Source: Pirellulales bacterium
Lineage (GTDB): Bacteria; Planctomycetota; Planctomycetia; Pirellulales; Lacipirellulaceae
Reading direction: 5' to 3'
DNA: 64,000 nucleotides
Assembly (NCBI GenBank): GCA_019636345.1
Contig: JAHBXQ010000006.1
Span: 186,001 to 250,000 of the forward strand
Part shown: positions 3,685-55,469 of the stretch, piece after piece
Layout: the number at the start of each line of letters is the position of its first letter
How positions within the stretch are numbered: position 1 is the first letter of the stretch
Notes under the pieces: model-generated
The model's database searches: none
What the model was told of the DNA's origin: nothing
The model's input: only the letters and a program-made list of their open reading frames with translations
Program-made: the position numbers and the translations under genes

Positions 3685-6081
<2,397 letters not shown>

Positions 6082-7142: not shown

Positions 7143-13036
<5,894 letters not shown>

Positions 13037-13447: not shown

Positions 13448-14581
13448 TCAATCGCGAAGCGGCCGCGACGTCGCCAACGCGATCGCCCGCCCTTCGGATC
13501 CCACCGCGCAGTAGAAGTGGTACACGATCCCGTCGTGCTTAAGCACCCACGGCTTGTGGGCGAACGTCTTGTCCCACGGTTCGGTCGGCCGGATCAGCGC
13601 CGGGCCGTCCCACTGGGTCCAGTGGACGAGGTCCCGCGACACGGCGAACGAATCAAAGGCCCCCGGACCCCATTGCAGCCCGAAGTAGAACATGACCCAC
13701 AGGTCGCCGATTCGTACGATTTGCGGATCGCCGGAGATCCCGCGACCGTTGTCGACAACAGGCCCGTCGCCGTATCTCCGCCAACGGAGCATGTCGTCGG
13801 AAACCGCCATGCCGATCCGCTCGATCCCCTCGCCTTGTTGCTTGCCGTTGTAGAACATGACGAACGGCGCCCCGAGCGACTCGTCCTTGTCCCACACCAC
13901 GTGGCTCTTGTAGAGCGTGGCCTGTTCGAACGGCCGCGCGTCGTCGTCCCCGGGGCCGAGCACCGGGTTGCCTTCGTATCGTCGCCAGGGCTTTGCTTCC
14001 TGCGGTGCGTTCGTCCACGCGACCCCAAGGGACAACGGGTCCGGCTCGTACCCCTGCTTGTTCCCGCCGAAGTACGTCAGCCAGTACTTGTCGTCGAACG
14101 GCTGCAGGGCATGGGTCCCCTCCCAGCGATGGTCCACCAGCGCAATGCTGCCGTCCGCTTGCCACGCGTCCCAAGTTCCTGTTCGGAACTCCAAGATTGT
14201 TCCGAGCGGCTCCCATCTTACGAGGTCGGCGCTCTTGGCGAGAAAGGTCTGGTAGCCGATCTTGTCGGCGATCGCTACGTAGACCATGTACCAGGCATCC
14301 GTGCCGCGAAAAACATTCGGGCAGTCGATGAGCTGGCCCGCGCCCGGTTGCAGCACAATACCGACCTTGAAGGGCGTCTTCGCTTCCTCGTACACGGCTT
14401 GCATGCTTTCCGCGTCAACGCGATGCTCGTCGGGCACGGCGTTAAGCGGGTCGACATGTCCTGGCTCGCGGGCTGCGGTCGGGGCGGAGTCGATCGTCAG
14501 CGTCATTCCGATTGCAACCGCACACAGCCATCGGCGAGATCGTTGAACGGGCGCCGACCTCGCGGGGGTGAACCTATTCAT
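13448..14581 (-). CDS. Exported five-bladed beta-propeller glycosidase-like protein
   Basis: The product is 377 residues. ATG 14581 is preceded by a strong AGGAGGAG ribosome site seven bases upstream, lying inside the end of the GH106 gene, which it overlaps by 8 bp. A basic N-terminus and hydrophobic stretch form a signal peptide. The rest alternates propeller blades typical of GH43/GH117/GH130-like proteins: LIDCPNVFRG, WDAWQADGSIALVDHRWEG, VMFYNGKQQGEGIERIGMAVSDD, GISGDPQIVRIGDLWVMFYFG and KTFAHKPWVLKHDG. I cannot assign a GH family or substrate. Overlap with GH106 and the embedded ribosome site indicate one transcript and coupled translation. Confidence 0.7.
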   Translation of the reverse strand: MNRFTPARSAPVQRSRRWLCAVAIGMTLTIDSAPTAAREPGHVDPLNAVPDEHRVDAESMQAVYEEAKTPFKVGIVLQPGAGQLIDCPNVFRGTDAWYMVYVAIADKIGYQTFLAKSADLVRWEPLGTILEFRTGTWDAWQADGSIALVDHRWEGTHALQPFDDKYWLTYFGGNKQGYEPDPLSLGVAWTNAPQEAKPWRRYEGNPVLGPGDDDARPFEQATLYKSHVVWDKDESLGAPFVMFYNGKQQGEGIERIGMAVSDDMLRWRRYGDGPVVDNGRGISGDPQIVRIGDLWVMFYFGLQWGPGAFDSFAVSRDLVHWTQWDGPALIRPTEPWDKTFAHKPWVLKHDGIVYHFYCAVGSEGRAIALATSRPLRD

Positions 14582-17500
14582 TCCGAGACTCCTCCTCGAT
14601 TTCTCTCCACACGGTGACGGGCCCCAGCAGGCCCGCCGGCAGCAGTCGGGCATCTGCGGCCGGCCGGCGAGCTGTCATCCACGCTCGCGCGGGGCCGACC
14701 CCGTTCGCGTCGCCGACGAGCCGGTTGGCCCAGGTATTGTAGACTTCGACGACAAGCTCGTTCTCCCCGCCGCGCAGCTTCCCGGTTGCCTCGACAAGGA
14801 AGGGCGACTTCCATGCGACGCCGCAATCGGCGCCGTTGAGCGTCACCCGCGCCAGGTTCTCGACCCGGCCCAGTTCAATCCACGTTCGCCCCGAGCCAAT
14901 GACCTCCCCGTCAGCGCGGAACGACTTCGAATATGCGGCGTTGCCCGAGTAATGCCTCACTCCCGGGTCGGCGTGGGTCGTCCAATCGATCAACTCCGTG
15001 AACTCGACCGCTTCGACAGGGCCCCCCAGCGACGGATCGAATCGCACTTGCCACGGCCCGGCGAGCGTCCTCGCCAAGCTGCGATTCTGCCGTTGCGGCA
15101 AGTTCGACGGCTTTTGCGGGAACACGAGGAAGCGGCTTTCGTGAGGCCCCAAGCGGAACGTCGTCGTCGTCCGCAGATCGTCGGTGAGCTCCACGCGCCG
15201 TCCGGGAAAGGCGATCCGCGCGCCTGTCGCCGGGTCCCACAGTTCCGCCGTCGCGGCCGCGACGCGGAAGGTTCCGCGCACCCCCGTCGTGCGCGCGCCC
15301 TGGTTCGCGATGAAGTACGCGTCGGCGTCCGCGGTGCGGCGGTGGGTCCATGCAAGCTCGCCGGGCTGGCCATCGAACTCGGCGTCCGGGACGAGTCCCA
15401 ACTCCGCGCGAAGATTAAGGCCCTTCGTCCCGCAAACGACCACGCCGTCCCCGAGCCGGCGAATCTCTCCTCTCGCGTTGCGGGAGGGGAGTTCAGTCGG
15501 CCAAAGCTCCTCCAATCGTGCCTCGTAAGCTCGTCGCATGTCGGAGTCGGACGCCCCGACTCTCGCCATCGGCAGCGGCCGCTCGCACAGGACCACCGTC
15601 CCCCCCCCGCGGATTAACTCGAGCAACTTGGCCGCGACGGCCGGCGACATCCGCGCTCCGTCGGGTTGCAGCGGATGCCGCCCTGGCACGACGAGCAACC
15701 GATAGCTCGCCCCGCCGGGGAGCACGATCCGCCCCCCCTCGACGCGGCACAACTGCAGCAAGGCGTCCGGCCCCAGCGAGTCAAAGGCGAACCCGTTCAG
15801 CGGATCGACCCACGCGGCTGGATCGACGATGTTCGCCGCGTGTCGCACCCCGGGCGGGCCCTCGGCCACTGGCGTGTCGCGATTCATTCGCCGCAGTTGC
15901 TCCGCTCGCTGTCGTCCCAGATCCGACAACCCCGGCAAGAACGGGAGTCGTTCGGGGAGTACCGCCCGGCTGGGGATTTCCTCCCCCGTGAATACCGCCA
16001 CGTCGACGACCGGGGCGCCGCATTGCAACACCCCCTGGCACCGCCTGACGTAGTCGATCCATCCCCCTACTGCCGGCCACCACGTTTGGCCGCGCTGGAA
16101 CAGCAGTCCGACGTTGTCGAGCGTCATCCCTGGCCGTCGCTCGAGCCACGGATTGTGCGCGAACACGTGAAACACCAGCCGATTCGCTCCGGCCGCAAAC
16201 TGGCGATCGGCCAGCGGCTTAAGCAACGCCGGGTGTTCGTCCCACTCCATCCGCAATTGAGTGAAGGCCTCGGCCTGCACGATCGGCTTGCCGTAGACGT
16301 GCGCCGCCGAGATCGCATCCAGCATGTCGTTGGGCTTGTCGTGCGTCGGGCTTCGCAGCCAGAACTCGCCCATCGGCACGTCGACGGCGCGAAAGTGCTC
16401 CATTCCCCGGGCCGACATCGTCGGCGCCACGCACTCGGCCGAGAACTGGCAGCGGTGTTTGTCGGCTAACTCGGCGAGCGTGCCGAAGAATCGCTCCTGC
16501 AACAGTTCGTTGAGCGTCACGCGCCAGTCGTGCAGAAACTGCTCCGAGGAGTTGGCGTCGCCGACGGGACGCCCCGCAAGCGTCGGCAGATACGGCAGCG
16601 GCTCGTATCCGCGGCGGCGGCGAAACTCTTCCAACATCCCCGGCGTCCAGTTCTGGCTGCCGCATTCCCAACTGTCGACGTGCAGCGTGGTCAGCGTACG
16701 ACTCGCCGCGGGGCCGACGTCCTTGAGCACTTCCGCGAACCATCGTTCGAACTGAAGTCGAACCGCGACCGGGTTGAGCTTGTCGCACTCGAGCCCCTTG
16801 CCCCCGCCGGCCGTATCGTTGTGGGCGCCAGTTGAGGTGTGGCCAAGCCGCAGCACGCGCCACCGCCCCGCGGGGGGATTCCAGTCGAGCGTGCCGTCCG
16901 CGCCGAGCTTGTCGGTGAGATCAAGCACCGCCTTCGGCTGAATCGCCAAGTCGGTCGGGCACTGTTTGTCGGTCGACCACGGACTCACGCTCCATGACGA
17001 ACCGTTCTTCCCTTCCCATTGGTGGATTCGCGGTTCCGCCGAGAGTTCGAGGGTGCGCACCTTGAGCACCGGCGACCATTTGGCCGAGTCGAGATCCTCG
17101 GCGCCTGGCTCGGTCCCAACCTTGTTCCAGGTGAAGCGAAACCGCCTGGCGGCCGTCGCGGGGATCGCGTGCGTGACGGTCTTGTCGCCGTTGTGCCAAC
17201 CGTGACGCGGCGGGGCAAGTTGCGTCACGGGGACGAACGAACGGCCGTCAGGACTCGCCTCGACGACGAACCGGTGGGCCTGCGAGTTGGCGCCATCGGG
17301 AGTGATTGTGATTGAACGGCAGGTGAACGGCTCAGCGAATTCGTACAACACCCATCCGCGGTCCTCGAGGCGCAACCGGGGCTGTTCCGAGCGGTCGGCG
17401 TTCCCTGCCAGAAATGTCGCGTCGACGTCTTCCCGACTTGTCGTCACGCTCGGTCGCACGGTGCGCGACGTGATCCCGGCGCTTGGACCCGCCGGAAACG

Positions 17501-18056
17501 CCAGCACCGCGACGTCGCGGTAATGCCCTTCCTTTGCAGGCGGTTGATCCAAGGCGAGCGGACCGGCACTGGAGCGTTCGGTTTCGTCGCCGACGATCGC
17601 TTCCGACCACGTCAATTGCTGCATCGACAGCTCAGGAGTAATCCACGGCCCCCCTGCTGTGGCGAACCCGTCGCACACGTGCAGGGCCAGTTTCAGCCCG
17701 CGACGTTCTGCACCTGAGACAGCGTGCCGAACATAGTCGCGCCACTCAGGCGACAGCTGCACGACCGGCGTCGGCCAGGGGGATTCGGCCAGCGGGCCCT
17801 TGATCGGCATCAGGTACGCCCCGCCGAGCCCGGCCTGCTGCATCGCGTGCAAGTCCGCGTCGATCCCCTCGCGCGACACGCAGCCGTGCATCCAGTACCA
17901 AAACGCCCATGGCTTGGCCTCGGCTGGAGGGTTCTCGAATGCCGCGAGAAACTCGTTCGCTCGCGCAGTGCGGAGACCCCTGACGCCGTTGATCGCAAGG
18001 ATCGCACAGGCGCCCCACACTACGATCCTGCGCCGCATGAGACAGGCAAACGACAT
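14574..18056 (-). CDS. GH106-like alpha-L-rhamnosidase
   Basis: This 1160-residue exported protein matches the GH106 architecture. After a signal peptide (RRRIVVWGACAILAINGV), the mature protein begins with the family hallmark FENPPAEAKPWAFWYWMHG, followed by the TIM barrel (GGAYLMPIKGP, CDGFATAGGPW, LHVDSWECGSQNWTPGMLEEF) and C-terminal beta domains (TWIELGRVENLARVTLNG, NELVVEVYNTWANRL). GH106 enzymes remove alpha-L-rhamnose; the characterised gut enzyme acts on rhamnogalacturonan-II. ATG 18056 is preferred over an in-frame TTG at 18083; a third option is ATG 18038. The gene is divergent from the GH2 at 18226, across about 170 bp. Confidence 0.88.
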   Translation of the reverse strand: MSFACLMRRRIVVWGACAILAINGVRGLRTARANEFLAAFENPPAEAKPWAFWYWMHGCVSREGIDADLHAMQQAGLGGAYLMPIKGPLAESPWPTPVVQLSPEWRDYVRHAVSGAERRGLKLALHVCDGFATAGGPWITPELSMQQLTWSEAIVGDETERSSAGPLALDQPPAKEGHYRDVAVLAFPAGPSAGITSRTVRPSVTTSREDVDATFLAGNADRSEQPRLRLEDRGWVLYEFAEPFTCRSITITPDGANSQAHRFVVEASPDGRSFVPVTQLAPPRHGWHNGDKTVTHAIPATAARRFRFTWNKVGTEPGAEDLDSAKWSPVLKVRTLELSAEPRIHQWEGKNGSSWSVSPWSTDKQCPTDLAIQPKAVLDLTDKLGADGTLDWNPPAGRWRVLRLGHTSTGAHNDTAGGGKGLECDKLNPVAVRLQFERWFAEVLKDVGPAASRTLTTLHVDSWECGSQNWTPGMLEEFRRRRGYEPLPYLPTLAGRPVGDANSSEQFLHDWRVTLNELLQERFFGTLAELADKHRCQFSAECVAPTMSARGMEHFRAVDVPMGEFWLRSPTHDKPNDMLDAISAAHVYGKPIVQAEAFTQLRMEWDEHPALLKPLADRQFAAGANRLVFHVFAHNPWLERRPGMTLDNVGLLFQRGQTWWPAVGGWIDYVRRCQGVLQCGAPVVDVAVFTGEEIPSRAVLPERLPFLPGLSDLGRQRAEQLRRMNRDTPVAEGPPGVRHAANIVDPAAWVDPLNGFAFDSLGPDALLQLCRVEGGRIVLPGGASYRLLVVPGRHPLQPDGARMSPAVAAKLLELIRGGGTVVLCERPLPMARVGASDSDMRRAYEARLEELWPTELPSRNARGEIRRLGDGVVVCGTKGLNLRAELGLVPDAEFDGQPGELAWTHRRTADADAYFIANQGARTTGVRGTFRVAAATAELWDPATGARIAFPGRRVELTDDLRTTTTFRLGPHESRFLVFPQKPSNLPQRQNRSLARTLAGPWQVRFDPSLGGPVEAVEFTELIDWTTHADPGVRHYSGNAAYSKSFRADGEVIGSGRTWIELGRVENLARVTLNGADCGVAWKSPFLVEATGKLRGGENELVVEVYNTWANRLVGDANGVGPARAWMTARRPAADARLLPAGLLGPVTVWREIEEESRNE

Positions 18057-18111
18057 TTCGCACAGCCGACCGAGCCAAGACAAGTGATGTGCCAGCGGAG
18101 CTTGTGTAGGA

Positions 18112-18130: not shown

Positions 18131-18153
18131 GTCGCCGCGTCGATGGGCCAACA

Positions 18154-18182
18154 TTGGACTCCGCCCCGACTGTCTGTTATAG
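18154..18182 (+). promoter_or_regulatory. Candidate sigma70-type promoter for the GH2 gene
   Basis: TTGGAC at 18154-18159 and TTATAG at 18177-18182 are separated by exactly 17 bp. This would place a start near 18190, about 36 bases before the GH2 ATG. Prediction by eye only. Confidence 0.35.
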
Positions 18183-18225
18183 CTGGTCGGCAGAGCGACT
18201 GACTAGCAATGCCAGGATACGAACC

Positions 18226-20634
18226 ATGCTTTGCCCCATGCCTGCAAAGGCACTCTCCGCCCTTGCAATCTCTGCCTTCTGGGCCTGCTCGGCTTGTGCG
18301 GGCGAACAGTTGCTCCTTGACGCTGGTTGGCGTTTCTGCCAGGGGGACGACGCAACTTGGGCGGCCGCCGACGTCGACGCTGCCGACTGGTCGTCGATCG
18401 ACCTGCCCCATGATTGGAGCATCCGCGGGGAGCGCCTCGCCGCCGCCCCTGCCGAGGGGCATGGCGGATACTTCCCGGGGGGCGTCGGTTGGTATCGCCG
18501 CACGTTTCGCATTCCCGCCAGTTGGAAGTCGAAGCGGATCGCCGTTGAGTTCGAGGGCGCGTACCGTCGCACCGAGGTGTGGTGCAACGGGCGACTGCTT
18601 GGAAATAACACGAATGGGTACCTGCCGTTTCGCTTCGACCTGACGCCGCATCTTAAACCCGAGGGCGACAACGTCCTGGCGGTCCGCGTCGAGAACGACG
18701 ACCTCCCCAACTCACGGTGGTACACCGGCTCGGGGATCTATCGACACGTCCGGCTTGCCGCGAGGAATCCCGTGTTCGCTGATCCTGCTTCTTGGAGCGT
18801 GACGACTCTCAAGACCGATCCCGATGCGGCAGTAATCCAATGTGCTGCGCAAATCCGGAACGAGTCGCCGGCGTCCGCCATGGTGCACGTCGAGTTCGCG
18901 CTGGTCGATCCTGCCGGCCGTTACGCGGCGGCGAAGTCGGAACCGAGCACCGTCGCCGCGGGGGAAGCCGCAGATTTCACGACGTTGGTGCGAGTTCCCG
19001 CGCCGCAGCTGTGGTCTCTCGATCATCCGCACCTCTACGACGCCGTTGTCCGGACATACGTCGACGGGCGGCTCGTCGACGACCTTCGCGACAACGTCGG
19101 CATTCGCACCGTGGCTCTTTCGAGCGAGCGCGGATTCCTCCTCAACGGGCAGCCGCTCAAGCTCGTCGGCGGAAATCTGCACCACGACCACGGCCCCCTC
19201 GGCGCTGCGTCGTTCAACATGGCCGAGGAGCGCCGCGTGCGGCTCCTCAAGGCCGCGGGGTTCAATGCAATTCGCACCTCTCACAATCCGCAGGCCCCGG
19301 CGTTTCTGGCCGCATGCGACCGGCTAGGCATGTTGGTCGTCGCAGAAGGGTTCGACCACTGGGAAGCCTCGAAGACCAAGCATGACGACGGCCCTCAGTT
19401 CGCCGAGCGCGGCCCAGACGAGATCGAACGGATGGTCCGCCGCGATCGGCGCCATCCGTCGATCGTCATGTGGAGCATCGGCAACGAGGTCTACGAACGG
19501 GGCAAGCAGCGGGGCGTGGAGCTCGCGCGTGAGCTTGATCAACGAGTCCGCGAGATCGATCCCTCGCGTCCGGCGACAATCGGACTCAACGGATTGGGGC
19601 CGAACCAAGAATGGGCCGAACTCGACCCGCTGTTCGCCCTGGTCGACGCGACGGGATACAACTACGAGCTCCACCGGGCCGAGGAAGACCGCCGCCGCGT
19701 TCCGGGCCGGCTGATCTACGGCTCCGAAACCTATCCTCGCGACGTCTTCGCCGACTGGCACGCTGTCCAGCAACATCACTACGTCTTCGGCGCTTTTGTA
19801 TGGAGTGCGGTCGATTACCTGGGCGAAGCGGGGATCGGGCGAGTCTTTCCTCCCGGCGAGGAGGCGCGACCGCACTGGGTGGGGAATCACTTCCCCAGCC
19901 ACGGCGCGGATTGCGGCGATCTCGACCTCCTCGGACGCCGTCGGCCCCACTCGCACTACCGCAACATTGTCTGGAACCGCGGGGAACGGTTGTTCGCGGC
20001 CGTTCAGGTCCCGGAGCCTGACGGAGGCCGCTGGCAACCGACGCTGTGGTCTCCGCCAATGCTTGCCGACCACTGGACCTGGCCGGGGCTTGAGGGCCGG
20101 CCGCTCCAGGTCGAAGTCTTCAGCCGCTGCGAGACTATCCTCGTCCTGCTCAATGATTCGCTCGTCGCCGAGCAATCCATGAGCGAAGAGACCGAGTTTC
20201 GCGCCGTGGTCGAAGTCCCGTACGAGCCGGGCCGACTGACGGTCGTTGGCCTCGAAGGGGGTCGCGAGACCGAACGGTGCGAACTTGCCGCCGCCGGAGA
20301 GCCCGTGGCCGTGCGACTTGTCGCCGAGTCGCCCGCCGTCCCCGCGCGTCGACAGTCGATCGCCTTCGTCACGGTCGAGGTGGTCGACGCTGCGGGCGAG
20401 GTCTGCCCCCATGCTGATCATAGGGTCGAGTTCGCCGTCACTGGCCCGGCGACAATCGCGGCGGTCGGCAGCGCGGACCTTGCGACGACCGAGTCCTATC
20501 TGGCGAATCCCCGCAAAGTCTACCAGGGGCGGGGCCAAGTCATCCTGCGCGCGAACGGGACCCCGGGGACGATCCGCCTGCGGGCCTCCGCTCCGGGGCT
20601 CCTCCAGGCCGAAGCGACGATTCTCGCCGAATGA
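18226..20634 (+). CDS. GH2 glycoside hydrolase, beta-galactosidase type, exported
   Basis: The longer open frame contains 38 residues of non-family sequence, so I start at ATG 18226, which follows CAGGAT by about 8 bases. The 802-residue product has a signal peptide (ALSALAISAFWACSACAG) and the GH2 domains: sugar-binding jelly roll (WSSIDLPHDWSIRGE, GVGWYRRTFRIP, NSRWYTGSGIYRHVRL), Ig domain, TIM barrel (GGNLHHDHGPLG, IRTSHNPQAPAFL) and a C-terminal Ig-like domain. The acid/base Glu is near residue 421 in WSIGNEVYERG; the nucleophile Glu is near residue 501 in YGSETYPRD. This is the short GH2 subtype with DUF4982-like C-terminal domains, distinct from the LacZ-type copy at 7143-10565. The precise beta-linked sugar is not determined. 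Confidence 0.9.
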   Translation: MLCPMPAKALSALAISAFWACSACAGEQLLLDAGWRFCQGDDATWAAADVDAADWSSIDLPHDWSIRGERLAAAPAEGHGGYFPGGVGWYRRTFRIPASWKSKRIAVEFEGAYRRTEVWCNGRLLGNNTNGYLPFRFDLTPHLKPEGDNVLAVRVENDDLPNSRWYTGSGIYRHVRLAARNPVFADPASWSVTTLKTDPDAAVIQCAAQIRNESPASAMVHVEFALVDPAGRYAAAKSEPSTVAAGEAADFTTLVRVPAPQLWSLDHPHLYDAVVRTYVDGRLVDDLRDNVGIRTVALSSERGFLLNGQPLKLVGGNLHHDHGPLGAASFNMAEERRVRLLKAAGFNAIRTSHNPQAPAFLAACDRLGMLVVAEGFDHWEASKTKHDDGPQFAERGPDEIERMVRRDRRHPSIVMWSIGNEVYERGKQRGVELARELDQRVREIDPSRPATIGLNGLGPNQEWAELDPLFALVDATGYNYELHRAEEDRRRVPGRLIYGSETYPRDVFADWHAVQQHHYVFGAFVWSAVDYLGEAGIGRVFPPGEEARPHWVGNHFPSHGADCGDLDLLGRRRPHSHYRNIVWNRGERLFAAVQVPEPDGGRWQPTLWSPPMLADHWTWPGLEGRPLQVEVFSRCETILVLLNDSLVAEQSMSEETEFRAVVEVPYEPGRLTVVGLEGGRETERCELAAAGEPVAVRLVAESPAVPARRQSIAFVTVEVVDAAGEVCPHADHRVEFAVTGPATIAAVGSADLATTESYLANPRKVYQGRGQVILRANGTPGTIRLRASAPGLLQAEATILAE

Positions 20635-20878: not shown

Positions 20879-21982
20879 ATGCCCACCGTCCTGCGAGTCC
20901 TGCTGCTTGCCCTCGCGACGTTCGCGACAGCCGTCGCCGCGACGGCCGACGAGGCCGAATTGCTCGCCCAGCCAGGGCTCCTTAGCAGCGAGTTCATCTA
21001 CGACGAGGCGCCATTTCCGTCGTGCCATGCCGCGACGATCGTCGACACCCCTGCGGGGCTGGTCGCCGCTTGGTTCGGCGGCACGCACGAACGCCATCCC
21101 GACGTGGGAATCTGGGTCTCCCGCCACGACGGTCGGCGGTGGTCGACGCCGGTCGAAGTTGCCAACGGGCTCGTTCCGGACGACAAGCAGCGTTACCCGA
21201 CCTGGAACCCCGTGCTCTTCCAGCCGACTCGCGGCCCCCTGATGCTGTATTACAAGGTTGGCCCGACGCCGCAGAATTGGTGGGGCATGGTCATGTCCTC
21301 CGCCGATCACGGCGCCAGTTGGTCGGAGCCCCGACGACTGCCAGAGGGGATTCTCGGCCCAATCAAGAACAAGCCGATCGAACTGCCCGATGGCACGATC
21401 CTCTCTCCTTCCAGCAGCGAGGACCAAGGCTGGCGGGTCCATTTCGAACGCTCGACCGACGGCGGCCAGACCTGGACTTCGACCGGCCCGGTCAACGATG
21501 GCAAAGCGATCGGCGCCATTCAACCCAGCATTCTTCGCCACGCCGATGGCCGCTTGCAGGCTCTGGGACGGACCCGCTCGCACGGAATTTTTCAGGTCTG
21601 GTCGAGCGACCAGGGCCGCACTTGGGGCGAGTTGACCACCTTGCCGCTCCCCAACCCCAGTGCGGGAACCGACGCAGTCACGCTGGCCGATGGCCGGCAT
21701 TTGCTCGTCTACAACCATAGCGGCGTCTATAAGGTCCGCACGCCGTTGAACCTCGCCGTCTCGCGCGACGGGATGGCGTGGGAGTCGGTGCTCGTGCTTG
21801 AGGACGAACCGGGGCAGGAGTTCTCCTACCCGGCGATCATCCAGGCCAACGACGGGCACGTTCACATCGTCTACACCTGGCATCGGACGCGGATCAAGCA
21901 CGCGGTCGTCGACCCCGCGCTGCTCGTCGCCAAACCGCTGCCCGCCGAACCGGTCGCGGACGCGCCGCCAGCCGAAAACTGA
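20879..21982 (+). CDS. BNR-repeat sialidase-like protein, exported
   Basis: The product is 367 residues from ATG 20879 (an alternative GTG lies at 20864) with a signal peptide (VLRVLLLALATFATAVAATA). It is a beta-propeller with Asp-box repeats: SSADHGASW, STDGGQTW and SSDQGRTW. This places it in the BNR_2 group often called exo-alpha-sialidase. The canonical FRIP arginine motif of true sialidases is not visible, so sialic acid is not a safe substrate call. It sits 60 bp before a NanA/DapA-type aldolase, a pairing expected for release and cleavage of 2-keto-3-deoxy sugar acids. Some sialidase-like (GH33) domains act on Dha or Kdo in rhamnogalacturonan-II, which would fit here. That last step is inference. 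Confidence 0.7.
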   Translation: MPTVLRVLLLALATFATAVAATADEAELLAQPGLLSSEFIYDEAPFPSCHAATIVDTPAGLVAAWFGGTHERHPDVGIWVSRHDGRRWSTPVEVANGLVPDDKQRYPTWNPVLFQPTRGPLMLYYKVGPTPQNWWGMVMSSADHGASWSEPRRLPEGILGPIKNKPIELPDGTILSPSSSEDQGWRVHFERSTDGGQTWTSTGPVNDGKAIGAIQPSILRHADGRLQALGRTRSHGIFQVWSSDQGRTWGELTTLPLPNPSAGTDAVTLADGRHLLVYNHSGVYKVRTPLNLAVSRDGMAWESVLVLEDEPGQEFSYPAIIQANDGHVHIVYTWHRTRIKHAVVDPALLVAKPLPAEPVADAPPAEN

Positions 21983-22042
21983 CCCCGAGGCGCCGGTTGT
22001 ACCGGCGGCCGCGCCAACCACTCACTCCGCTCTAGCTGCAAT

Positions 22043-23011
22043 ATGACGCACGACATGGCCCAACCCATGCGAGGCATTATCCCCCCGCTGGCGACCCCGC
22101 TCACGCCGCAGGGCGAGTTGGACGAAGCTGGTTTGGCACGGCTCATTGAGCATGTCATCGGCGGCGGGGTGCATGGGGTCTTCATCCTCGGCACGACGGG
22201 CGAAGGTCCCTCGCTCAGCGTTGCGCTTCGCCGGCAGGTGATCGACGCGACGGCAAAACACGTCGACCGCCGCATCCCCGTGCTGGTCGGGGTCACCGAT
22301 CCGTCGCTGGCCGAGTCGCTCGCCCTGGCCGAGGCTGCGGCCGCCGCCGGTTGCGACGCGATCGTGGCGGCCCCGCCGTATTACTTTCCCGTGGACCAAC
22401 CGGCGCTGCTCGGCTACTTCCAAACGCTCGCCCGCTCGGCACCGCTGCCGACGGTGCTGTACAACATGCCGGCGGTGACGGGATTGTCGATCGCCCCCGA
22501 GACGGTCGAATGCCTCGTCGACGAGCCGGCGATCGTCGGGCTCAAAGACAGCTCGGGGGACCGAGACTACTTCCAGGCGGTCCGGATCGCCACGCGGCGG
22601 AGGGTCGATTTCCCGCTGTTTGTGGGGCCAGAGCACCTGCTTGCCGAGTCGCTGCGGGCTGGGGGCGACGGCGGGGTAAGCGGCGGGGCGAACGTGTTCC
22701 CCGAGTTCTTCACCGAGTTGTACGACGCCCATTTCTGCGGCGACGCGGCCCAGGTCGCAGCGGCCGAGGAGCGGGTCCAGCGGCTCGGCGCCATCTACCG
22801 CGTCGGCCCCGTGACGATCCCCGCGATCATCGCACGCACCAAGGCGGCCCTCGCTGCTCGCGGCTTGTGCGGCCCAACGACGGCCCCGCCGCTCGCGCCG
22901 GCAAGTGCCGAGGAAGCGAAGGCAGTCGGCGTGATCGTAGAGCAACTGATCCAACGAACTCCGCTGGCGGCTTCGGCTCCAAGCCCAGTCTCCACGGGAC
23001 TCATCGGTTAG
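22043..23011 (+). CDS. DapA/NanA-family class I aldolase or synthase
   Basis: The 322-residue cytoplasmic protein has the dihydrodipicolinate synthase/N-acetylneuraminate lyase TIM barrel: GVFILGTTGEGPSL, VLVGVTDPS, AAPPYYFPVDQP, the YNMP motif (Tyr near residue 140) and the Schiff-base Lys near residue 168 in VGLKDSSGD. Family members cleave or form 2-keto-3-deoxy acids through pyruvate. Lying in a sugar locus next to a sialidase-like gene rather than with lysine genes, it is more likely a catabolic aldolase for a keto-deoxy acid (Kdo, Dha, sialic acid or a deoxy aldonate) than a biosynthetic DapA. No strong ribosome site precedes ATG 22043; an internal Met five codons in is possible. Confidence 0.85.
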   Translation: MTHDMAQPMRGIIPPLATPLTPQGELDEAGLARLIEHVIGGGVHGVFILGTTGEGPSLSVALRRQVIDATAKHVDRRIPVLVGVTDPSLAESLALAEAAAAAGCDAIVAAPPYYFPVDQPALLGYFQTLARSAPLPTVLYNMPAVTGLSIAPETVECLVDEPAIVGLKDSSGDRDYFQAVRIATRRRVDFPLFVGPEHLLAESLRAGGDGGVSGGANVFPEFFTELYDAHFCGDAAQVAAAEERVQRLGAIYRVGPVTIPAIIARTKAALAARGLCGPTTAPPLAPASAEEAKAVGVIVEQLIQRTPLAASAPSPVSTGLIG

Positions 23012-27737: not shown

Positions 27738-30470
27738 ATGACTCACTCACTGCTCAGCGGCGTCTGCCGCTTGGGGCTCGCCCTGTCGCTCGCAGTCGCC
27801 GCCGTTCCGGCCGCCGCTTACGAGGTCGCCCGGCTTCGCTGCGAAGACTCCGCCGACCCGCTCGGGGTCGACGTCCCCCAGCCGCGGCTCTCCTGGCAGG
27901 TTGCCAGCGACGAACGGGGTCAGCGGCAAACTGCCTATCGGGTCCTCGTTGCGTCGTCCCCGGAACAGCTCGCCGCCGAGCGGGGCGACCTGTGGGATTC
28001 CGGACGGGTCGAGTCTGACGCGACGACGGTCGTCCGCTACGCCGGCGCCGAACTCTCCTCGTCGCAACGCGTCCACTGGAAGGTCCAATCATGGGATGCC
28101 CGAGGCCAAGCGTCCGCGTGGAGCCAACCCGCCGCCTGGACCATGGGGATTGTCGACCCGGCCGACTGGCGGGCCGTATGGATCGTGGCGCCCTGGTCGT
28201 CGGAGGCGCTGCTGGTTCGGAAGGAGTTTCTCGTCCGCCCGGGGCTGCGGCGGGCGACCGCCCACCTGACCGGGCTGGGGCATTTCGAGTTCTTCCTCAA
28301 CGGCCGCCGGGGATCGGCCAACCTGCTCTCCCCTGGTTGGACCAAATACGACCGCACGTGTCTCTACGAGACCCACGACGTGACCAACCTGCTGCAGCCC
28401 GGCGCCAACGCCATCGGCATGGCCCTGGGCGACGGGATGTATCATTCGGAACGTCGCAACCGGTTCAGCAAGTTCCAGGGGAGCTTCGGCCCGCTGCGGG
28501 CGTTCGGGCAAATCGAGCTTGAGTACGAGGACGGTTTGCGCGAAGTCGTCGCCACGGCCACGGACTGGCGCGTCGCCCGCGGACCAGTGACCTACAACGA
28601 CGTCTACGGCGGCGAGGACTACGACGCCCGACTGGAAGAGCCCGGCTGGAACGCCCCCGGGTTCGACGACGCCCATTGGACCGAGGCGGTCGAGTTGGTG
28701 CGCGGGCAGAAGGACCTCCGCGGCCTGTCGGCCAGCGCCCCGCCGCTGGGAGCCATCGAGACGATCGCGCCCGTCACGACGATCACGGTCGGAGAATCCG
28801 AGGTCGTCGACCTCGGCCAGAACGCCTCGTTCATGCCGCGGATTACGGTGTCGGGTCCCGCGGGGAGCACGGTGCGGTTGACCCACGCCGAGGTGCTCGA
28901 CCCCGAGGGACGCATCGACCGAGGCACCTGCGGAGGCAACCGCGGCCCCGCATATTGGCAATACACGAAGCGATCCGACGAACCGGAGACGTGGTTCCCG
29001 CAATTTTTTTACGCGGGGTGCCGGTATCTGCAGGTCGATCGATTGCCGGCGACGCCGGGCGGTCGACGGCCTCGGCTCGACCGCTGCGCGGGGGTCGTCG
29101 TCCACTCGACTGCCGCCCCAACGGGCGAGTTTGCCTGTTCCAGCGAGTTGCTCAATCGCATTCGCACGCTCGTGCGCTGGGCCCAACGATCGAACATGGT
29201 GTCGGTCCTCACCGACTGTCCCCACCGCGAAAAGCTGGGGTGGCTCGAGCAGTACCACCTCAACGGACCTTCGATCCGGTACGAATTCGACGTGGCGAAC
29301 ATCTTCGCAAAGGGGATGCGGGACATGGCCGACTCGCAACTTCCCAGCGGACTGGTGCCGAACATCGCTCCCGAATACACGGTTTTTCCGGGGACGTTCC
29401 GCGCCGCGGCAGAGTGGGGTTCGGCCGTGATCCTCGTCCCCTGGCAGCAGTACCTGTTCACCGGCGATCCGACGTTGCTCGTGAACTATTACCCGCAGAT
29501 GAAGCGATACATGGGATACCTCGACTCAATCGCCGAGGACGGCGTCGTGAGCGAGGGGCTAGGGGACTGGTACGACATCGGCCCCGCGGATCGCCCTGGT
29601 CACGCCCAGCTCACTCCGCCGTCGGTTACCGCGACGGCGTTCTACTTTCACGACGCCCAGCTGATGACCCGGATCGCCGAGCTCGTGGGCCGAGCCGACG
29701 ATGCGGCTCGCTATGCCGCTCAGGCCGACGCGATTCGCGCCGCGTGGCTCCGCGCGTTTCGCAGCGAGGAGGGAGTTTACGCCACGAATTCGCAGTGCAG
29801 CAACGCATTGGCCCTGGAACTGGGGCTCGTGGAACCCGCCGACCGCGAACGGGTCCTGGCGGCCCTGGTCGCGGATCTTGAATCGCACGGTTTCGCCCCA
29901 ACCGCCGGCGACGTGGGGCACCGATACTTGCTGCAGGCCCTCGCCCGCGGCGGACGATCGGACCTCGTCGACCGGATGGTCAACCAGGACGAGCGGCCCG
30001 GCTACGGCTACCAACTCAAGCAGGGGGCGACCAGCCTCACCGAGGCGTGGGACGCCAACCATCACTCGTCGCACAACCACTTCATGTTGGGGCACGTCAC
30101 CGAGTGGTTCTACGGCGACCTGCTTGGGATCCGTCCCGATCCCGCGGCGCCCGGATTCAAGCGGGCGATCGTCGCCCCCGCACCGGTCGGCGAACTCGCC
30201 TGGGCCGAGGGAGCGTACGATGGTCCCCACGGTCGCATTTGCGTTCGTTGGACGCATGCCGAACGAAAGTTCACGCTGCGGGTCGCGATTCCCGCCAATT
30301 CGACGGCGATCGTACGCCTGCCGACCGACGATCCCGGTTCCGTCCGCGAAGGGGGCCGGCCGCTGGCCGATGTCGAGGGAGTTTCCGCCGGGAAGGCCGA
30401 CGGCGATCGCTTGATCGTGGAGATCGAATCCGGGACGTACGAGTTCACAAGCGACTGGGCGGGGAACTGA
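27738..30470 (+). CDS. GH78 alpha-L-rhamnosidase, exported
   Basis: The 910-residue product has a signal peptide (LSLAVAAVPAAA) and the full GH78 order: N-terminal Ig-like domain (LRCEDSADPLGVDVPQPRLSWQV), two beta domains (FFLNGRRGSANLLSPGWTKYDR), the (alpha/alpha)6 catalytic barrel and a C-terminal beta domain. The catalytic region near residue 493 reads DCPHREKLGWLEQYHLNG. This is the variant form of the more common DCPxRDERxGWxGD motif, keeping the acidic residue after Arg. These enzymes invert and release terminal alpha-L-rhamnose. It lies 57 bp after the DUF1501 gene. A second GH78 at 55470 has the canonical motif and no signal peptide, so the two probably act in different compartments. 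Confidence 0.92.
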   Translation: MTHSLLSGVCRLGLALSLAVAAVPAAAYEVARLRCEDSADPLGVDVPQPRLSWQVASDERGQRQTAYRVLVASSPEQLAAERGDLWDSGRVESDATTVVRYAGAELSSSQRVHWKVQSWDARGQASAWSQPAAWTMGIVDPADWRAVWIVAPWSSEALLVRKEFLVRPGLRRATAHLTGLGHFEFFLNGRRGSANLLSPGWTKYDRTCLYETHDVTNLLQPGANAIGMALGDGMYHSERRNRFSKFQGSFGPLRAFGQIELEYEDGLREVVATATDWRVARGPVTYNDVYGGEDYDARLEEPGWNAPGFDDAHWTEAVELVRGQKDLRGLSASAPPLGAIETIAPVTTITVGESEVVDLGQNASFMPRITVSGPAGSTVRLTHAEVLDPEGRIDRGTCGGNRGPAYWQYTKRSDEPETWFPQFFYAGCRYLQVDRLPATPGGRRPRLDRCAGVVVHSTAAPTGEFACSSELLNRIRTLVRWAQRSNMVSVLTDCPHREKLGWLEQYHLNGPSIRYEFDVANIFAKGMRDMADSQLPSGLVPNIAPEYTVFPGTFRAAAEWGSAVILVPWQQYLFTGDPTLLVNYYPQMKRYMGYLDSIAEDGVVSEGLGDWYDIGPADRPGHAQLTPPSVTATAFYFHDAQLMTRIAELVGRADDAARYAAQADAIRAAWLRAFRSEEGVYATNSQCSNALALELGLVEPADRERVLAALVADLESHGFAPTAGDVGHRYLLQALARGGRSDLVDRMVNQDERPGYGYQLKQGATSLTEAWDANHHSSHNHFMLGHVTEWFYGDLLGIRPDPAAPGFKRAIVAPAPVGELAWAEGAYDGPHGRICVRWTHAERKFTLRVAIPANSTAIVRLPTDDPGSVREGGRPLADVEGVSAGKADGDRLIVEIESGTYEFTSDWAGN

Positions 30471-38314: not shown

Positions 38315-39883
38315 TTAGTCGCTCTGCCAAGCATCCAGCGGCGGGGTACTGCCTATCCATTCGATCTCAGCAGCGCCGGCTATCTCGTCCTCGTCTTTGA
38401 CCAGCCGCGGTCGTGCCGTCGCTTCCACGGCGACCTCCTCGCCTGCAAATCCTCGAACGGCGTTCAACGTGATCGTCGGGTCGCGCGAGACGATCCGCGA
38501 GCGGCGGATGGCAAACTGCCGGACGTCCGTGAGGTTCAGCAACCCCCGACTCGCAACGGTCGCGTCTTCCACCGTGAACCGCGTCAGCGGGCTCTCGGGG
38601 ATTCCCTTCACCTTCACGAATTCGCCCTGGCACGAACCGGCGAGCCCGCGGATCGTGACGTCGCGGTAGTACGGCGTCGACGGCGTCAGGGGGCGAGGAG
38701 GGAGGCGTTCGGCCAATTCGCCCACGAACATCGGGGCTCCCAGCATGTCGCAGAACACGGCGTGGTCCTGAGTCGTGAAGCGAATTCGCTCGAAGGAGAG
38801 CTGCTCGCCCCCGCCGCCGCGCGGGCGACGCGTTTTCAGATAGATCGCGTGCTTGACCCCTTCGAACACGCAATCGTGAACGTGAACGCGCCGGATCCCC
38901 CCCGCGGTCTCGCTGCCGCAGGTGACACCGCCGATGCCTCCCGCGGCGTAGTTGCGGCGGAACACGACGTTCTCGACCGGACGAGCGGTCCGCAGTCCGT
39001 CGGCGTTGCGGCCCGCTTTGAGGACGTAGCAGTCGTCCCCCGTGTCGACCGAACAGTACTCGACGAGCACGTTGCGACTCGACTCGACGTCGATTCCGTC
39101 GCCGTTGACCACGCCGCGACTGTCGATCGTGACGCCGCGCACCAGCACGCCGTCGCAGGCGATGGGAACGATGTTCCACATCGGGCCGCGGCGGAGGGCG
39201 ACGCCCTCGACGAGCACGTCGCGGCATTCCACCAGCGTGATGAAATAGGGGCGAAAGTAATGCCGCCCCTGCCGGCCGTCGAACACGCGATCTTCGACCG
39301 GCGATTGCGGATCGACCAGCTCGTCGGAGAGCCCCGGGCGCGCTTCGCGGAGCGGTCCTGACTTGGGCCCCAGCAATTCGCCGGAGCCGGTGACGGCGCA
39401 CCCTTCGGCCCCGCGGGCGTAGATCAGCCCGCCGGCGCTCATCAGCTCAATCCCCTCGTACCGCGTGAAGACCGGGGGGAGGTAATCTTCGATCCTGTCG
39501 CTGAATTCGAGCACGGCCCCGGCGGCCAGATGCAAATTTACGCGCGAGCGGAGCACGATCCGTCCGGTCTGCCACCGGCCGGCCGGGACCAGCGCCGTGC
39601 CCCCTCCCGCCGCCGCGACCCGGTCGATCGCCTGTTGGATTGCCGTGGTCGCGAGCTTGCCGCGATCTGCGATTGCCCCGCAGTCGACGATCGACACGGT
39701 TCGCGGCGGGAACTTGGGCCGCCGTGGCGTCGGCATTTCAAACGGCGCCACGATCGGCGCCACGTCGCGAGGCATCGCCGCGGGGCCAGTTTGGTCGCGA
39801 GTCGGGATCGCCTCGTCGGCGCGAACTACGGCGCCGATCGCCAGCAGGACGAGCGTCAAGGATGCGCTCAAGCGTAATGGCAT
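38315..39883 (-). CDS. GH28 polygalacturonase/rhamnogalacturonidase-type enzyme
   Basis: The 522-residue exported protein (signal LSASLTLVLLAIGAVVRA) is a right-handed beta-helix of the GH28 type. After the usual opening (IVDCGAIADRGKLATTAIQQAID, LVPAGRWQTGRIVLRSRVNLHL), it shows the catalytic block: NGDGIDVESSRNV, then DTGDDCYVLKAG with the paired Asp. GGIGGVTCGSET stands where classical enzymes have GHG, and YLKTRR where they have RIK. These variants are common in bacterial GH28s acting on decorated galacturonans. Predicted reaction: hydrolysis of alpha-galacturonide (or galacturonate-rhamnose) linkages. A 116-bp gap separates it from the esterase gene upstream on the same strand. Confidence 0.88.
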   Translation of the reverse strand: MPLRLSASLTLVLLAIGAVVRADEAIPTRDQTGPAAMPRDVAPIVAPFEMPTPRRPKFPPRTVSIVDCGAIADRGKLATTAIQQAIDRVAAAGGGTALVPAGRWQTGRIVLRSRVNLHLAAGAVLEFSDRIEDYLPPVFTRYEGIELMSAGGLIYARGAEGCAVTGSGELLGPKSGPLREARPGLSDELVDPQSPVEDRVFDGRQGRHYFRPYFITLVECRDVLVEGVALRRGPMWNIVPIACDGVLVRGVTIDSRGVVNGDGIDVESSRNVLVEYCSVDTGDDCYVLKAGRNADGLRTARPVENVVFRRNYAAGGIGGVTCGSETAGGIRRVHVHDCVFEGVKHAIYLKTRRPRGGGGEQLSFERIRFTTQDHAVFCDMLGAPMFVGELAERLPPRPLTPSTPYYRDVTIRGLAGSCQGEFVKVKGIPESPLTRFTVEDATVASRGLLNLTDVRQFAIRRSRIVSRDPTITLNAVRGFAGEEVAVEATARPRLVKDEDEIAGAAEIEWIGSTPPLDAWQSD

Positions 39884-45095: not shown

Positions 45096-47576
45096 ATGAA
45101 TAAGCTTCGCAGCCTGTGCATTCTCGCTCTGACGGCAGGATCGTGCGCACCGCTCGCTCGCGCCGCGGACGACGACCCCGTCTATCTCTTCACGACCTTT
45201 CACGGCAACGGCGAAGACGGCCTGCGGTTCGCCTACAGCTTCGACGGCTACCGCTGGGCGAACGTCCCGGGAACGTTCCTCAAGCCGAGGGTCGGCAGCG
45301 GGTTGATGCGCGACCCGAGTCTGCTGCGGGGCCCCGACGGACGGTATCGCCTCGTGTGGACGACCGCCTGGAAGGAGGACCAAGGCTTCGGCTACTCGTC
45401 GAGCGCCGACCTCGTTCACTGGAGCGAGCAGAAGTTCGTCTCCGCGATGATGCACGAGCCGACCACCGTGAACGTCTGGGCGCCTGAGCTGTTCTACGAC
45501 GCCAAGCGCGAGCAGTACGTCATTCTGTGGGCGTCGACGATCCCAGGGCGGTTCCCCGACGGTCAGGAGGAATCGACGAACAACCACCGGATGTACTGCA
45601 CGACGACCAAAGACTTTGTCGACTTCGCTCCGACGAAACTCTATCTCGACCCCGGGTTCAGCGTCATCGACTGCGTCATTGTCGCCCACGACGAGCGCTT
45701 TGTCCTCGTTCTCAAGGACAACACTCGACCTGAGCGGAACATCAGCGTCGCGTTCGCCGACGATCCGCTTGGCCCGTGGGAGGACCGCTCGACGCCGCTG
45801 ACGGCCCATCTCACCGAGGGGCCGACGGTGCTCCGGACCGGCGACGACTGGCTGATCTACTATGACAGCTACGGCGACAAGTCCTACGGCGCCCTCCGCA
45901 CGCGCGACTTTCGCACATTCGAGGACGTCAGTTCGCAGGTTTCGGTTCCCCGTGGACATACGCACGGCACGATCTGTCAGGTCACTCGCAAGGAACTGGC
46001 GTATCTGATTCGCGTCGGGAGCGAGCAAGTTCCCCAGACGCGTCTGCCCGTCGATCCGGCGCTTCCCGTCGAGGAACTCCAATCGCGACTTGCAGAAATC
46101 GACAACGTCGTCGCCCGCGGACCGTATCGTCCCGACTGGGATTCGCTCCGCGAGTTTCAAACCCCCGCGTGGTATCAAGACGCCAAGTTCGGCATCTTCA
46201 TCCACTGGGGGCCCTACGCCGTCCCCGCGTTCGGGAGCGAGTGGTATCCCCGCACGATGTACACGTCGGGAACGCCCGAATTCGCGCATCATCTGAAGAC
46301 CTACGGCCCGCACGCCCGGTTCGGGTACAAGGACTTCATCCCGCAGTTCAAGGCGGAGAAGTTCGACCCGTCCGCGTGGGCCGAGTTGTTCGCCGCCGCG
46401 GGGGCCAAGTACGTCGTTCCCGTGGCCGAGCATCACGACGGCTTCCCAATGTACGCCAGCGATTATACCGACTGGTCGGCCGCGAAGCGCGGTCCGGGCC
46501 GCGACGTTCTTGGCGAGCTGGCCGCCGCCTTGCGCGAGAAGGGGCTCGTCGTCGGCGCTTCGTCCCACCGTGCCGAGCATTGGTTCTACTTCGATCCCGG
46601 CCTGCGGATCGATTCCGACGTTCTCGATCCGGCGAACGCGGACCTCTACGGACCGGCCGTCAACAAACGGGTCGCCGAAAACCAGTCCGAGCCCCCCGAC
46701 GAGCAGTTCCTGGACGACTGGCTGCTGCGAAGTTGTGAGATCGTCGACAAGTACCGCCCCCAGGTCATGTACTTCGACTGGTGGATCTGCCAGCCAGTGT
46801 TCCAACCGTACTTGAAGCGGTTCGGCGCCTACTACTACAACCGGTGTGCCGAGTGGGGCCAACCGGGGGCGATCAACTTCAAGGACTGGGAGGGGCGCAG
46901 TTTTCCCGACGGCACGGGGGTGTTTGACATCGAACGGGGCTCCGCCCCGGCGATTCGCGCCGACTTCTGGCAAACCTGCACGTCGGTCTCCAAGTCGTCG
47001 TGGGGCTACGTGACGAACCACGAGTACAAGCAGGCCGGCGAGATCGTCGACGACCTGATCGACGTCGTCAGCAAAAACGGCACGATGCTGCTGAACATCG
47101 GCCCCCAGGCCGACGGGACGATCCCCGCGGAGGAAGCCGCAATGCTCCGCGACATCGGCGCCTGGCTGGCGATCAACGGGGAGGCGATCTATGGTTCGCG
47201 TCCCTGGACGCGATTCGGCGAGGGCCCGACCGAAGCGGTCGCCGGTTCGTTTGCCGACACGAAGCGCGACCCCTTTACCAGTCGCGACGTCCGCTTCACG
47301 ACCAAGGGGAACGTGCTGTACGCGATCGCACTGGCGGCGCCCGCCGACGGCAAGCTGTTGGTGACGTCGCTGGCGGGATACGGCGACGGATCGGCAGAGG
47401 ATGCAACGCCGCACATCGAGAACGTCGAACTGCTGGGCGCCGACGGCCCGGTCGACTGGGAGCACACTCCCGCGGGCCTCGCCGCAAAGATTCCCCTGCC
47501 TGCCCCGTCGGAATATGCCGTGACGCTGAAAATTACGCTGCGCGGCGCGGTTCCGGCGCCCACGGGAACTGACTAA
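45096..47576 (+). CDS. Bimodular GH43-like / GH29 alpha-L-fucosidase
   Basis: The 826-residue exported protein (signal LCILALTAGSCAPLARA) joins two enzyme folds. Residues about 25-330 form a five-bladed GH43-like propeller with a plausible acidic triad: RDPSLL, SVIDCVIV and LTEGPTVL. From about residue 350 a GH29 TIM barrel follows: FGIFIHWGPYAVPAFGSEWYPR, YVVPVAEHHDGFPMY, the nucleophile Asp near residue 561 in MYFDWW, and SKNGTMLLNIGPQADGTI. GH29 enzymes release alpha-L-fucose with retention; GH43 enzymes usually release arabinose, xylose or galactose. One polypeptide may therefore remove two adjacent sugars. It heads the isomerase-transketolase-kinase cassette, 112 bp before the isomerase. 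Confidence 0.88.
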   Translation: MNKLRSLCILALTAGSCAPLARAADDDPVYLFTTFHGNGEDGLRFAYSFDGYRWANVPGTFLKPRVGSGLMRDPSLLRGPDGRYRLVWTTAWKEDQGFGYSSSADLVHWSEQKFVSAMMHEPTTVNVWAPELFYDAKREQYVILWASTIPGRFPDGQEESTNNHRMYCTTTKDFVDFAPTKLYLDPGFSVIDCVIVAHDERFVLVLKDNTRPERNISVAFADDPLGPWEDRSTPLTAHLTEGPTVLRTGDDWLIYYDSYGDKSYGALRTRDFRTFEDVSSQVSVPRGHTHGTICQVTRKELAYLIRVGSEQVPQTRLPVDPALPVEELQSRLAEIDNVVARGPYRPDWDSLREFQTPAWYQDAKFGIFIHWGPYAVPAFGSEWYPRTMYTSGTPEFAHHLKTYGPHARFGYKDFIPQFKAEKFDPSAWAELFAAAGAKYVVPVAEHHDGFPMYASDYTDWSAAKRGPGRDVLGELAAALREKGLVVGASSHRAEHWFYFDPGLRIDSDVLDPANADLYGPAVNKRVAENQSEPPDEQFLDDWLLRSCEIVDKYRPQVMYFDWWICQPVFQPYLKRFGAYYYNRCAEWGQPGAINFKDWEGRSFPDGTGVFDIERGSAPAIRADFWQTCTSVSKSSWGYVTNHEYKQAGEIVDDLIDVVSKNGTMLLNIGPQADGTIPAEEAAMLRDIGAWLAINGEAIYGSRPWTRFGEGPTEAVAGSFADTKRDPFTSRDVRFTTKGNVLYAIALAAPADGKLLVTSLAGYGDGSAEDATPHIENVELLGADGPVDWEHTPAGLAAKIPLPAPSEYAVTLKITLRGAVPAPTGTD

Positions 47577-55050: not shown

Positions 55051-55469
55051 GTCGTCGTCTCGCTGACCTGGAAGCCCGATTGGAGAGAACCGAACCTGTA
55101 GAATACGCCCCGTGGAACCCCCCAGCAACGCGACGCCCCCGCGGCGGCAGATTCTGCGAACATCAGCCGTTGCGGTTCGCTTTTCGAGGGATGACGAGCC
55201 GCCGTCGCAGGGCTACATTCGACTGCCGAGCACGCCGGCGTCGCCGACACCGTGAGTCGCTGAATCGCCGCAAGAATGCCCAGACGGCACGAGGCGGAGA
55301 TCGCGGAGTCATCGAACGAGAAGCGGTCCCGAGGGCGCGTCGTTCGGGACGGATTGAGCGGAATTTCTCGTGCGACTCTTTGTGCCGGATTGCAGTCAAT
55401 TCGCCCTGGGCCCGGTCCGCGTCAACTGTGGCTCCTGACCGCCAATCCACTGCGGACCGAGACCATGCC
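55051..55469. other. Divergent intergenic region, apiosidase-like / GH78
   Basis: This 419-bp gap lies between outward-facing genes. Isolated TTGC elements occur at 55170 and 55390 but not in the spaced arrays seen elsewhere. No gene is called. Confidence 0.5.

Follow-up and report, generated by a model that had tools for sequence, protein, structure and literature searches.

A sialidase-like propeller gene beside a DHDPS-family aldolase gene in a planctomycete pectin locus: candidate enzymes for the use of Kdo/Dha-type acids

The gene pair

The window, that is, the whole stretch of DNA analysed, comprises 64,000 nucleotides of contig C6 in the 5.18 Mb genome of a Pirellulales bacterium (assembly GCA_019636345.1). 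Two of its open reading frames (ORFs) lie on the same strand, 60 bases apart (Table 1), and encode a sialidase-like propeller (Pfam PF13088, BNR_2; 313 bits) followed by an aldolase of the dihydrodipicolinate synthase (DHDPS) family (PF00701; 215 bits). This adjacency had been pointed out in a reading of the sequence alone, and the profile matches bear it out. We propose, with moderate confidence, that the two proteins are a hydrolase and an aldolase for pectic acids of the type of 3-deoxy-D-manno-octulosonic acid (Kdo) and 3-deoxy-D-lyxo-heptulosaric acid (Dha). The propeller ORF is also open from a GTG at 20864 (20864-21982, + strand), the ATG at 20879 being the start given in the sequence-only reading; as judged by eye, the N-terminus from Met6 looks like a signal peptide. 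A promoter scan at the window gave no signal exceeding chance.

No NCBIfam model matches the propeller at E 0.001, and its nearest solved sequences are sialidases, merely at E 6e-7. An AlphaFold2 model built from 28 sequences (pLDDT 90.9) has the predicted propeller fold of the sialidases of glycoside hydrolase (GH) family GH33. Sialidases were top-ranked by both Foldseek and VIA-align, the best VIA row being a sialidase with a Z of 37.3 and 2.3 Å over 307 residues; fourth in the Foldseek ranking is a Dyadobacter protein of unknown function (5hx0). The Dha hydrolase family GH143 (PF24067), which we take to be the N-terminal propeller of BT1020, resembles the window protein in being a propeller and in the proposed product class, Dha. 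The window propeller matches BNR_2 instead; no match to PF24067 was found in it at E 0.001, nor any in the genome, and a GH143 identity was rejected on this ground.

In GH33 sialidases catalysis involves a triad of arginines, the first of these in the FRIP motif, a tyrosine nucleophile paired with a glutamate, and an aspartate as acid. The corresponding residues were placed by alignments alone, namely a profile-profile comparison (hhalign) with four FRIP-bearing BNR_2 proteins, one from the same genome (E 1e-16), and a PDB profile search as the second source for the register. A reading by hand of a phmmer match with Micromonospora sialidase 2ber, in which Gly268 would correspond to the Tyr and Lys168 to the Glu, was dropped, since the profile alignments give a consistent register. 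Conservation was scored over 126 rows (112 near and 14 far relatives), which are partly non-independent, as L010/L073, L011/L079, L019/L107 and L031/L087 were each judged to be the same contig in two collections; the far set was divided off by locus number and takes in L160 at 49% identity.

The second and third arginines of the triad (Arg236 and Arg292) are each present in 126/126 rows, as is Tyr322. The place of the FRIP arginine is occupied by His55, which is invariant in a set of 28 sequences and found in 125 of the 126 rows, the other having a gap; the sequence-only reading had noted that no FRIP motif is visible, and this was confirmed. Glu76 is found in 125/126 rows (one X) and is aligned to an Asp of sialidase B in the PDB profile search, while hhalign puts a loop gap beside it. 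Residue 186 is Glu in 112/112 near and 5/14 far rows, with Cys in seven of the latter. At position 220, where GH33 has the glutamate that pairs with the tyrosine, all 112 near rows have Gln, and the far rows have Gln (6/14) or His (8/14). In the model the conserved residues sit at or beside strand ends.

Like the GH33 sialidases (e.g., Micromonospora 1eur/1w8o), the propeller has the predicted fold, Asp-box-like repeats, the second and third triad arginines and a Tyr near the C-terminal blade; it differs from them in its His for the FRIP arginine, its Gln/His for the glutamate partner and, probably, a Glu for the acid Asp. It is therefore best described as a GH33 relative and probably an enzyme, yet by these residues a non-member. 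The match to a catalytic sialidase fold and the invariant catalytic-type residues make it unlike a non-enzymatic BNR protein, the grouping that would have told against the sequence-only reading. Elsewhere on the same contig (approximately 309.6 kb, L002) there is a FRIP-bearing sialidase-like BNR_2/BNR_3 protein with a dockerin, distinct from the window propeller.

The second protein has the Schiff-base lysine, the tyrosine and the GTTGE motif of a class I aldolase of the DHDPS superfamily. Its nearest solved sequences, both within that superfamily, are 4xky (255 bits), presumably from B. thetaiotaomicron, and E. coli YagE (157 bits), which is annotated as a 2-dehydro-3-deoxygluconate aldolase and encoded beside a xylonate dehydratase. 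Seven NCBIfam models match the aldolase (dapA, nanA, 2-keto-3-deoxygluconate (KDG) aldolase and others), all under their cut-offs: 171.1 bits against 206.15 for the dapA model TIGR00674, and 110.9 of 382 and 122.1 of 281 bits for two nanA models. The motif YNMPAVTG compares with YNVPSRTG in E. coli DapA, so that the DHDPS arginine is absent; one of the three DHDPS-family genes of the genome (L003) does have the DapA-type arginine motif. An aldolase specific for dihydrodipicolinate synthesis, the second outcome that would have told against the sequence-only reading, was rejected on the missing arginine and the unreached cut-off. The aldolase tree is midpoint-rooted, with an unresolved backbone and several long branches, which include those of Azospirillum, L055 and NanA. 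In it the window gene belongs to a clade of 18 rows that takes in Planctomycetota, Verrucomicrobiota and Bacteroidota genes (support 97/97) and is separate from NanA, DapA and YagE of E. coli.

Linkage of the two families elsewhere

We examined 80 propeller loci from other genomes, with flanks of at most 10 kb, many of them shorter, in which the flanking genes were longest-ORF picks. A DHDPS-family gene is present in the flanks of 18 of the 80 loci, against 0.77 expected from gene density; several of the 18 are near copies, and the effective number is smaller. Ten of these linked genes share 40-52% identity with the window aldolase, and several immediately precede the propeller gene. An SSF transporter cluster occurs in 11/80 loci. 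In ten genomes, 14 of the 36 DHDPS genes have a BNR_2 gene at a distance of 5 kb or less, where 0.49 would be expected; ten of these 14 linkages persist without the four contigs that introduced linked loci. These genomes had been chosen via their propeller loci, of which four have a DHDPS gene linked to them; all 36 DHDPS rows were used, along with 69 BNR_2 places, rows below cut-off and second fragments of one protein being excluded. The Larkinella genome (G294, locus L059) has 25 BNR_2 matches, and five of its eight DHDPS genes have one of these no more than 2.5 kb away. Among 17 annotated plasmid loci chosen from 307 records (flanks 6 to 12 kb), seven have a DHDPS-family gene.

The propeller-linked aldolases fall into five separately supported clades and a lone Azospirillum gene, with 24-36% identity between clades; one clade (Spirosoma, Aquirufa) has its own motifs. 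On the tree the linked label needs nine changes, of which the starred branches force at least four, and 109 of 500 shuffles were equally low; clustering of the label is thus not shown. Gene L043 was left unlabelled despite a propeller 2.2 kb away. The linkage of several aldolase clades to one propeller family suggests repeated recruitment; given the unresolved backbone, a single old pairing is also possible. Because the linkage recurs with several supported aldolase clades, the pairing looks functional. Nothing points more strongly to a 2-keto-3-deoxy acid as the product than the association of a single propeller family with various aldolases that all belong to one superfamily.

Pectin-related genes in the window and beside other propellers

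The pair is surrounded by genes for pectin-type glycoside hydrolases (Table 1). The GH137-like gene matches the beta-glucuronidase/beta-L-arabinofuranosidase model NF049877 with 375 bits over model positions 14-351 of 1400, the cut-off of 1800 not being reached, and is nearest to 5mt2/5mui (E 1e-85), named beta-galactosidase in the PDB. Both 5mt2/5mui and the N-terminal part of NF049877 we take to be the GH137 of BT0996. A kinase nearest to OiaK of the apiose route lies 28 kb upstream of the propeller (398 bits, below the cut-off of 700), and the genome also has an apiosidase-family gene. Upstream of the window (C6, 178.3-185.5 kb) the OiaK-like kinase is encoded in a row with a sodium bile acid symporter family protein and a DUF6298 protein, which suggests apiose use.

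Table 1. Coordinates of the gene pair, of the aligned propeller residues and of the pectin-related genes in the window
Feature	Position	Strand	Remarks
Propeller ORF	20879..21982	+	sialidase-fold BNR_2, COG4692 type; signal-peptide-like start; proposed ulosonic/ulosaric acid hydrolase
His55 codon	21026..21028	+	place of the GH33 FRIP arginine (hhalign)
Glu76 codon	21089..21091	+	near the place of the GH33 acid/base Asp
Glu186 codon	21419..21421	+	Glu in near set, often Cys in far relatives
Gln220 codon	21521..21523	+	place of the GH33 Glu pairing with the Tyr nucleophile (hhalign, PDB profile search)
Arg236 codon	21569..21571	+	second Arg of the sialidase triad; hhalign and PDB profile search agree
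Arg292 codon	21737..21739	+	third Arg of the sialidase triad; hhalign and PDB profile search agree
Tyr322 codon	21827..21829	+	proposed nucleophile, SYPA motif
Aldolase ORF	22043..23011	+	DHDPS-family class I aldolase; Schiff-base Lys168, Tyr140; by model cut-offs neither DapA nor NanA
GH95, second	3685..6081	+	one of two GH95 in the window
GH95	10562..13036	-	profile match
GH137-like gene	13448..14653	-	relative of the N-terminal part of beta-glucuronidase/beta-L-arabinofuranosidase model NF049877
GH106 alpha-L-rhamnosidase	14574..18083	-	profile match
GH2 (beta-galactosidase/glucuronidase type)	18148..20634	+	profile match; two GH2 in the window
GH78 alpha-L-rhamnosidase	27738..30470	+	profile match
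GH28 (galacturonidase type)	38315..39883	-	–
Alpha-L-fucosidase with GH43-like N-terminus	45096..47576	+	–
GH78, second	55080..58388	+	one of two GH78 in the window

Similar company is found beside propellers of other bacteria. In Bacteroides finegoldii a GH78-propeller fusion stands beside GH140 and GH28, in Monoglobus pectinilyticus the propeller adjoins GH106, and an apiosidase-family gene adjoins it in a Streptomyces; another flanks the Spirosoma pair L071. The Croceibacterium locus has GH28, GH127, OiaK-like (435 bits) and OiaX-like (453 bits) genes, the cut-offs for the last two being 700; that of Rufibacter has a pectinesterase and a lyase. Other propellers are fused to a sulfatase (one ORF, L028), an esterase-type alpha/beta hydrolase (one ORF, L022) or FG-GAP domains. 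In Spirosoma and Aquirufa the gene order is propeller, SSF transporter, DHDPS, and the Spirosoma transporter is nearest to 5nv9 (216 bits; next 127), presumably a sialic acid symporter. A Pantoea locus (L171:4509-8237) has an SSF transporter, the propeller, a YhcH/DUF386 protein of the NanQ type and a short-chain dehydrogenase/reductase in a row, with no DHDPS gene in the stretch.

Proposed function and alternatives

Kdo and Dha, which the sequence-only reading had noted as components of rhamnogalacturonan II (RG-II), occur in its side chains C and D according to the available text of PMC12168206, and in plants they have so far been found nowhere but in this polymer (same text). The two chains terminate in rhamnose and arabinofuranose (PMC12282258, available text). 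As a source of the acid RG-II fits the GH137-like, GH95, GH106, GH78 and GH28 genes of the window, the apiose-type kinase 28 kb away and, elsewhere, the GH78-propeller fusion beside GH140. In the route that we infer, from hydrolase activity and substrate through export and uptake to the aldolase reaction, an exported sialidase-fold propeller would release a 2-keto-3-deoxy acid from pectin, probably either the Kdo that lies under rhamnose in chain C of RG-II or the Dha under arabinofuranose in chain D. The freed acid would be imported into the cell, where a cytosolic DHDPS-family enzyme would form a Schiff base on Lys168 and cleave it to pyruvate and an aldehyde, D-arabinose in the case of Kdo and a four-carbon aldehyde acid in that of Dha. 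The company of GH78 and GH106 favours Kdo for the window pair, and the rhizobial genes described below favour Dha for a different branch.

The pair represents a variant on the sialidase-plus-aldolase scheme, with comparable pairs of genes recurring in widely differing bacteria. It shares with the nan sialic acid system the logic of an outside hydrolase, uptake and a pyruvate-yielding Schiff-base aldolase, and differs from it in an aldolase under the nanA cut-offs, in the pectin context and in that no NanE-like genes were found by BLAST in the 80 flanks of its relatives. The release and cleavage by adjacent genes that the sequence-only reading envisaged is supported by sequence and model, the DHDPS and pectin/RG-II linkage recurring in other loci, if not in all.

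Several observations weigh against this proposal. With Gln or His in place of the Tyr-activating Glu, the aligned sequences indicate that the GH33 mechanism is not simply transferable; Tyr322 sits on the sialidase Tyr in the PDB profile search and one residue off it in hhalign. In the window we identified no gene for the import of Kdo or Dha. COG4692 is counted, with COG4409, among the GH33 sialidases in the available text of PMC9430343. In four of the 17 plasmid loci (Paraburkholderia, Pandoraea and two haloarchaea) the propeller has as its neighbour neither a DHDPS or pectin-type gene nor one for YhcH or for four-carbon acids. Searches of the 80 flanks for RG-II-type genes found GH78 once and GH140-like twice, and GH137-like, GH106, GH28 and GH127 not at all; those with E. 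coli genes found NanK-like and NanT-like once each, and neither NanE nor NanQ. As these were BLAST searches with single sequences, such absences are weak. Within the phylum, a sample of 294 genomes was searched for close relatives (propeller above 290 bits, aldolase above 218 bits). Among the matches listed, for which the number of candidates per genome was capped, close relatives of the aldolase occur in 20 other genomes, 12 of which also have one of the propeller. In a single one of the 12 (G105) the two lie close together, separated by 2.2 kb and an FG-GAP gene, which speaks against a fixed operon.

An unlikely alternative, and the one that survives best, is that the propeller is not a hydrolase and acts on free sugar acids (e.g., handling lactones or anomers) in non-phosphorylating pathways, the DHDPS protein being a 2-keto-3-deoxy-aldonate aldolase, as YagE is for xylonate. 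The rank of YagE as second-best solved relative of the aldolase and the replaced glutamate would suit this, as would the haloarchaeal and Paraburkholderia propellers, among whose neighbours are genes for mandelate racemase family proteins, for xylose dehydrogenase or for L-fuconate dehydratase; ten of the 11 far relatives examined lack, by eye, an obvious signal peptide. The near-set propellers examined do have signal-peptide-like starts (again by eye), and the fusions of some of them to GH78, sulfatase, esterase-type and FG-GAP domains suit a polymer-directed enzyme.

Improbable to a greater degree is a chance neighbourhood in a pectin island, in which the propeller is unrelated to the aldolase and the latter serves the breakdown of KDG or deoxy-rhamnonate/fuconate from released rhamnose, fucose and galacturonate; rhamnose and fucose enzymes are indeed abundant in the window and adjacency is rare in the phylum sample, while the recurrence of the linkage with different aldolase clades argues against it. 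Least probable is classical sialic acid use, by a divergent sialidase releasing N-acetylneuraminic acid (Neu5Ac) or Kdn and a neuraminate lyase: the sialidase fold, the 5nv9-like transporter beside the Spirosoma pair, the YhcH/DUF386 gene next to the Pantoea propeller and the filing of COG4692 under GH33 (PMC9430343, available text) point that way, against which stand a His for the FRIP arginine in every row with a letter there, the wide shortfall from the nanA cut-offs, the near absence of nan genes from the 80 flanks in single-sequence BLAST searches, a separate FRIP-bearing protein in the same genome and the pectin nature of the locus. The sequence-only reading had likewise held classic sialic acid use to be less likely, and plain Neu5Ac use was rejected on the replaced arginine, the missed cut-offs and the pectin context.

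For the preferred scheme of an acid-releasing hydrolase and a pyruvate-type aldolase, rhizobia offer a fuller set of genes. In Rhizobium johnstonii, R. leguminosarum, Agrobacterium fabrum, Sinorhizobium medicae and Azospirillum the propeller occurs with a DHDPS-family gene, an iron-containing alcohol dehydrogenase (Fe-ADH) and PdxA, and a four-carbon acid sugar kinase is present in all these loci except that of R. leguminosarum, whose stretch stops short. The R. johnstonii kinase is nearest to D-threonate kinase (141 bits, cut-off 450). The PdxA of this species scores 341 bits with the general PdxA model (over the cut-off of 290), 313 with another PdxA model and 304 with that for D-threonate 4-phosphate dehydrogenase (cut-off 583), and the models do not tell its exact substrate. 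The D-threonate pathway of DtnK and PdxA2, reportedly described by Zhang in 2016, resembles the rhizobial locus in its kinase (nearest DtnK) and PdxA; no such genes were found beside the window pair. Through a reduction to D-threonate, the rhizobial set of Fe-ADH, PdxA and kinase would fit Dha, and neither Kdo, which would give D-arabinose, nor Neu5Ac. Following the hydrolase, the aldolase would yield pyruvate and D-threuronate, Fe-ADH would reduce the latter to D-threonate, and a DtnK-like kinase and PdxA2-like dehydrogenase would lead to dihydroxyacetone phosphate and CO2. The same set occurs in an E. coli strain, with CitT, a NanQ-like protein, COG4692, DapA, Fe-ADH, OtnK (40% to DtnK) and PdxA (75% to PdxA2), according to the available text of PMC12928451.

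A wider and rather doubtful extension would make the COG4692-type propellers a distinct family of RG-II 2-keto-3-deoxy-acid hydrolases with His for the FRIP arginine, the Gln220/Glu186 branch (the window and the Bacteroides GH78 fusion) acting on Kdo and the rhizobial His220/Cys186 branch on Dha, with the rhizobial cluster as a complete Dha pathway. Among the matches listed, no description of the pair or of Dha breakdown was found in the open-licence literature, and the available text of the RG-II literature consulted names no route for the bacterial breakdown of freed Dha or Kdo. If the proposal is correct, sialidase-like hydrolases repeatedly paired with different pyruvate-type aldolases would constitute a route for Kdo/Dha use that becomes testable in rhizobia, and the labels "exo-alpha-sialidase" and "dihydrodipicolinate synthase" at such loci would need correction.

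Apart from the genes discussed, the window encodes at 30831-33812 (- strand) a long repetitive secreted protein with, by eye, autotransporter-like repeats and a PEP-CTERM-like tail.

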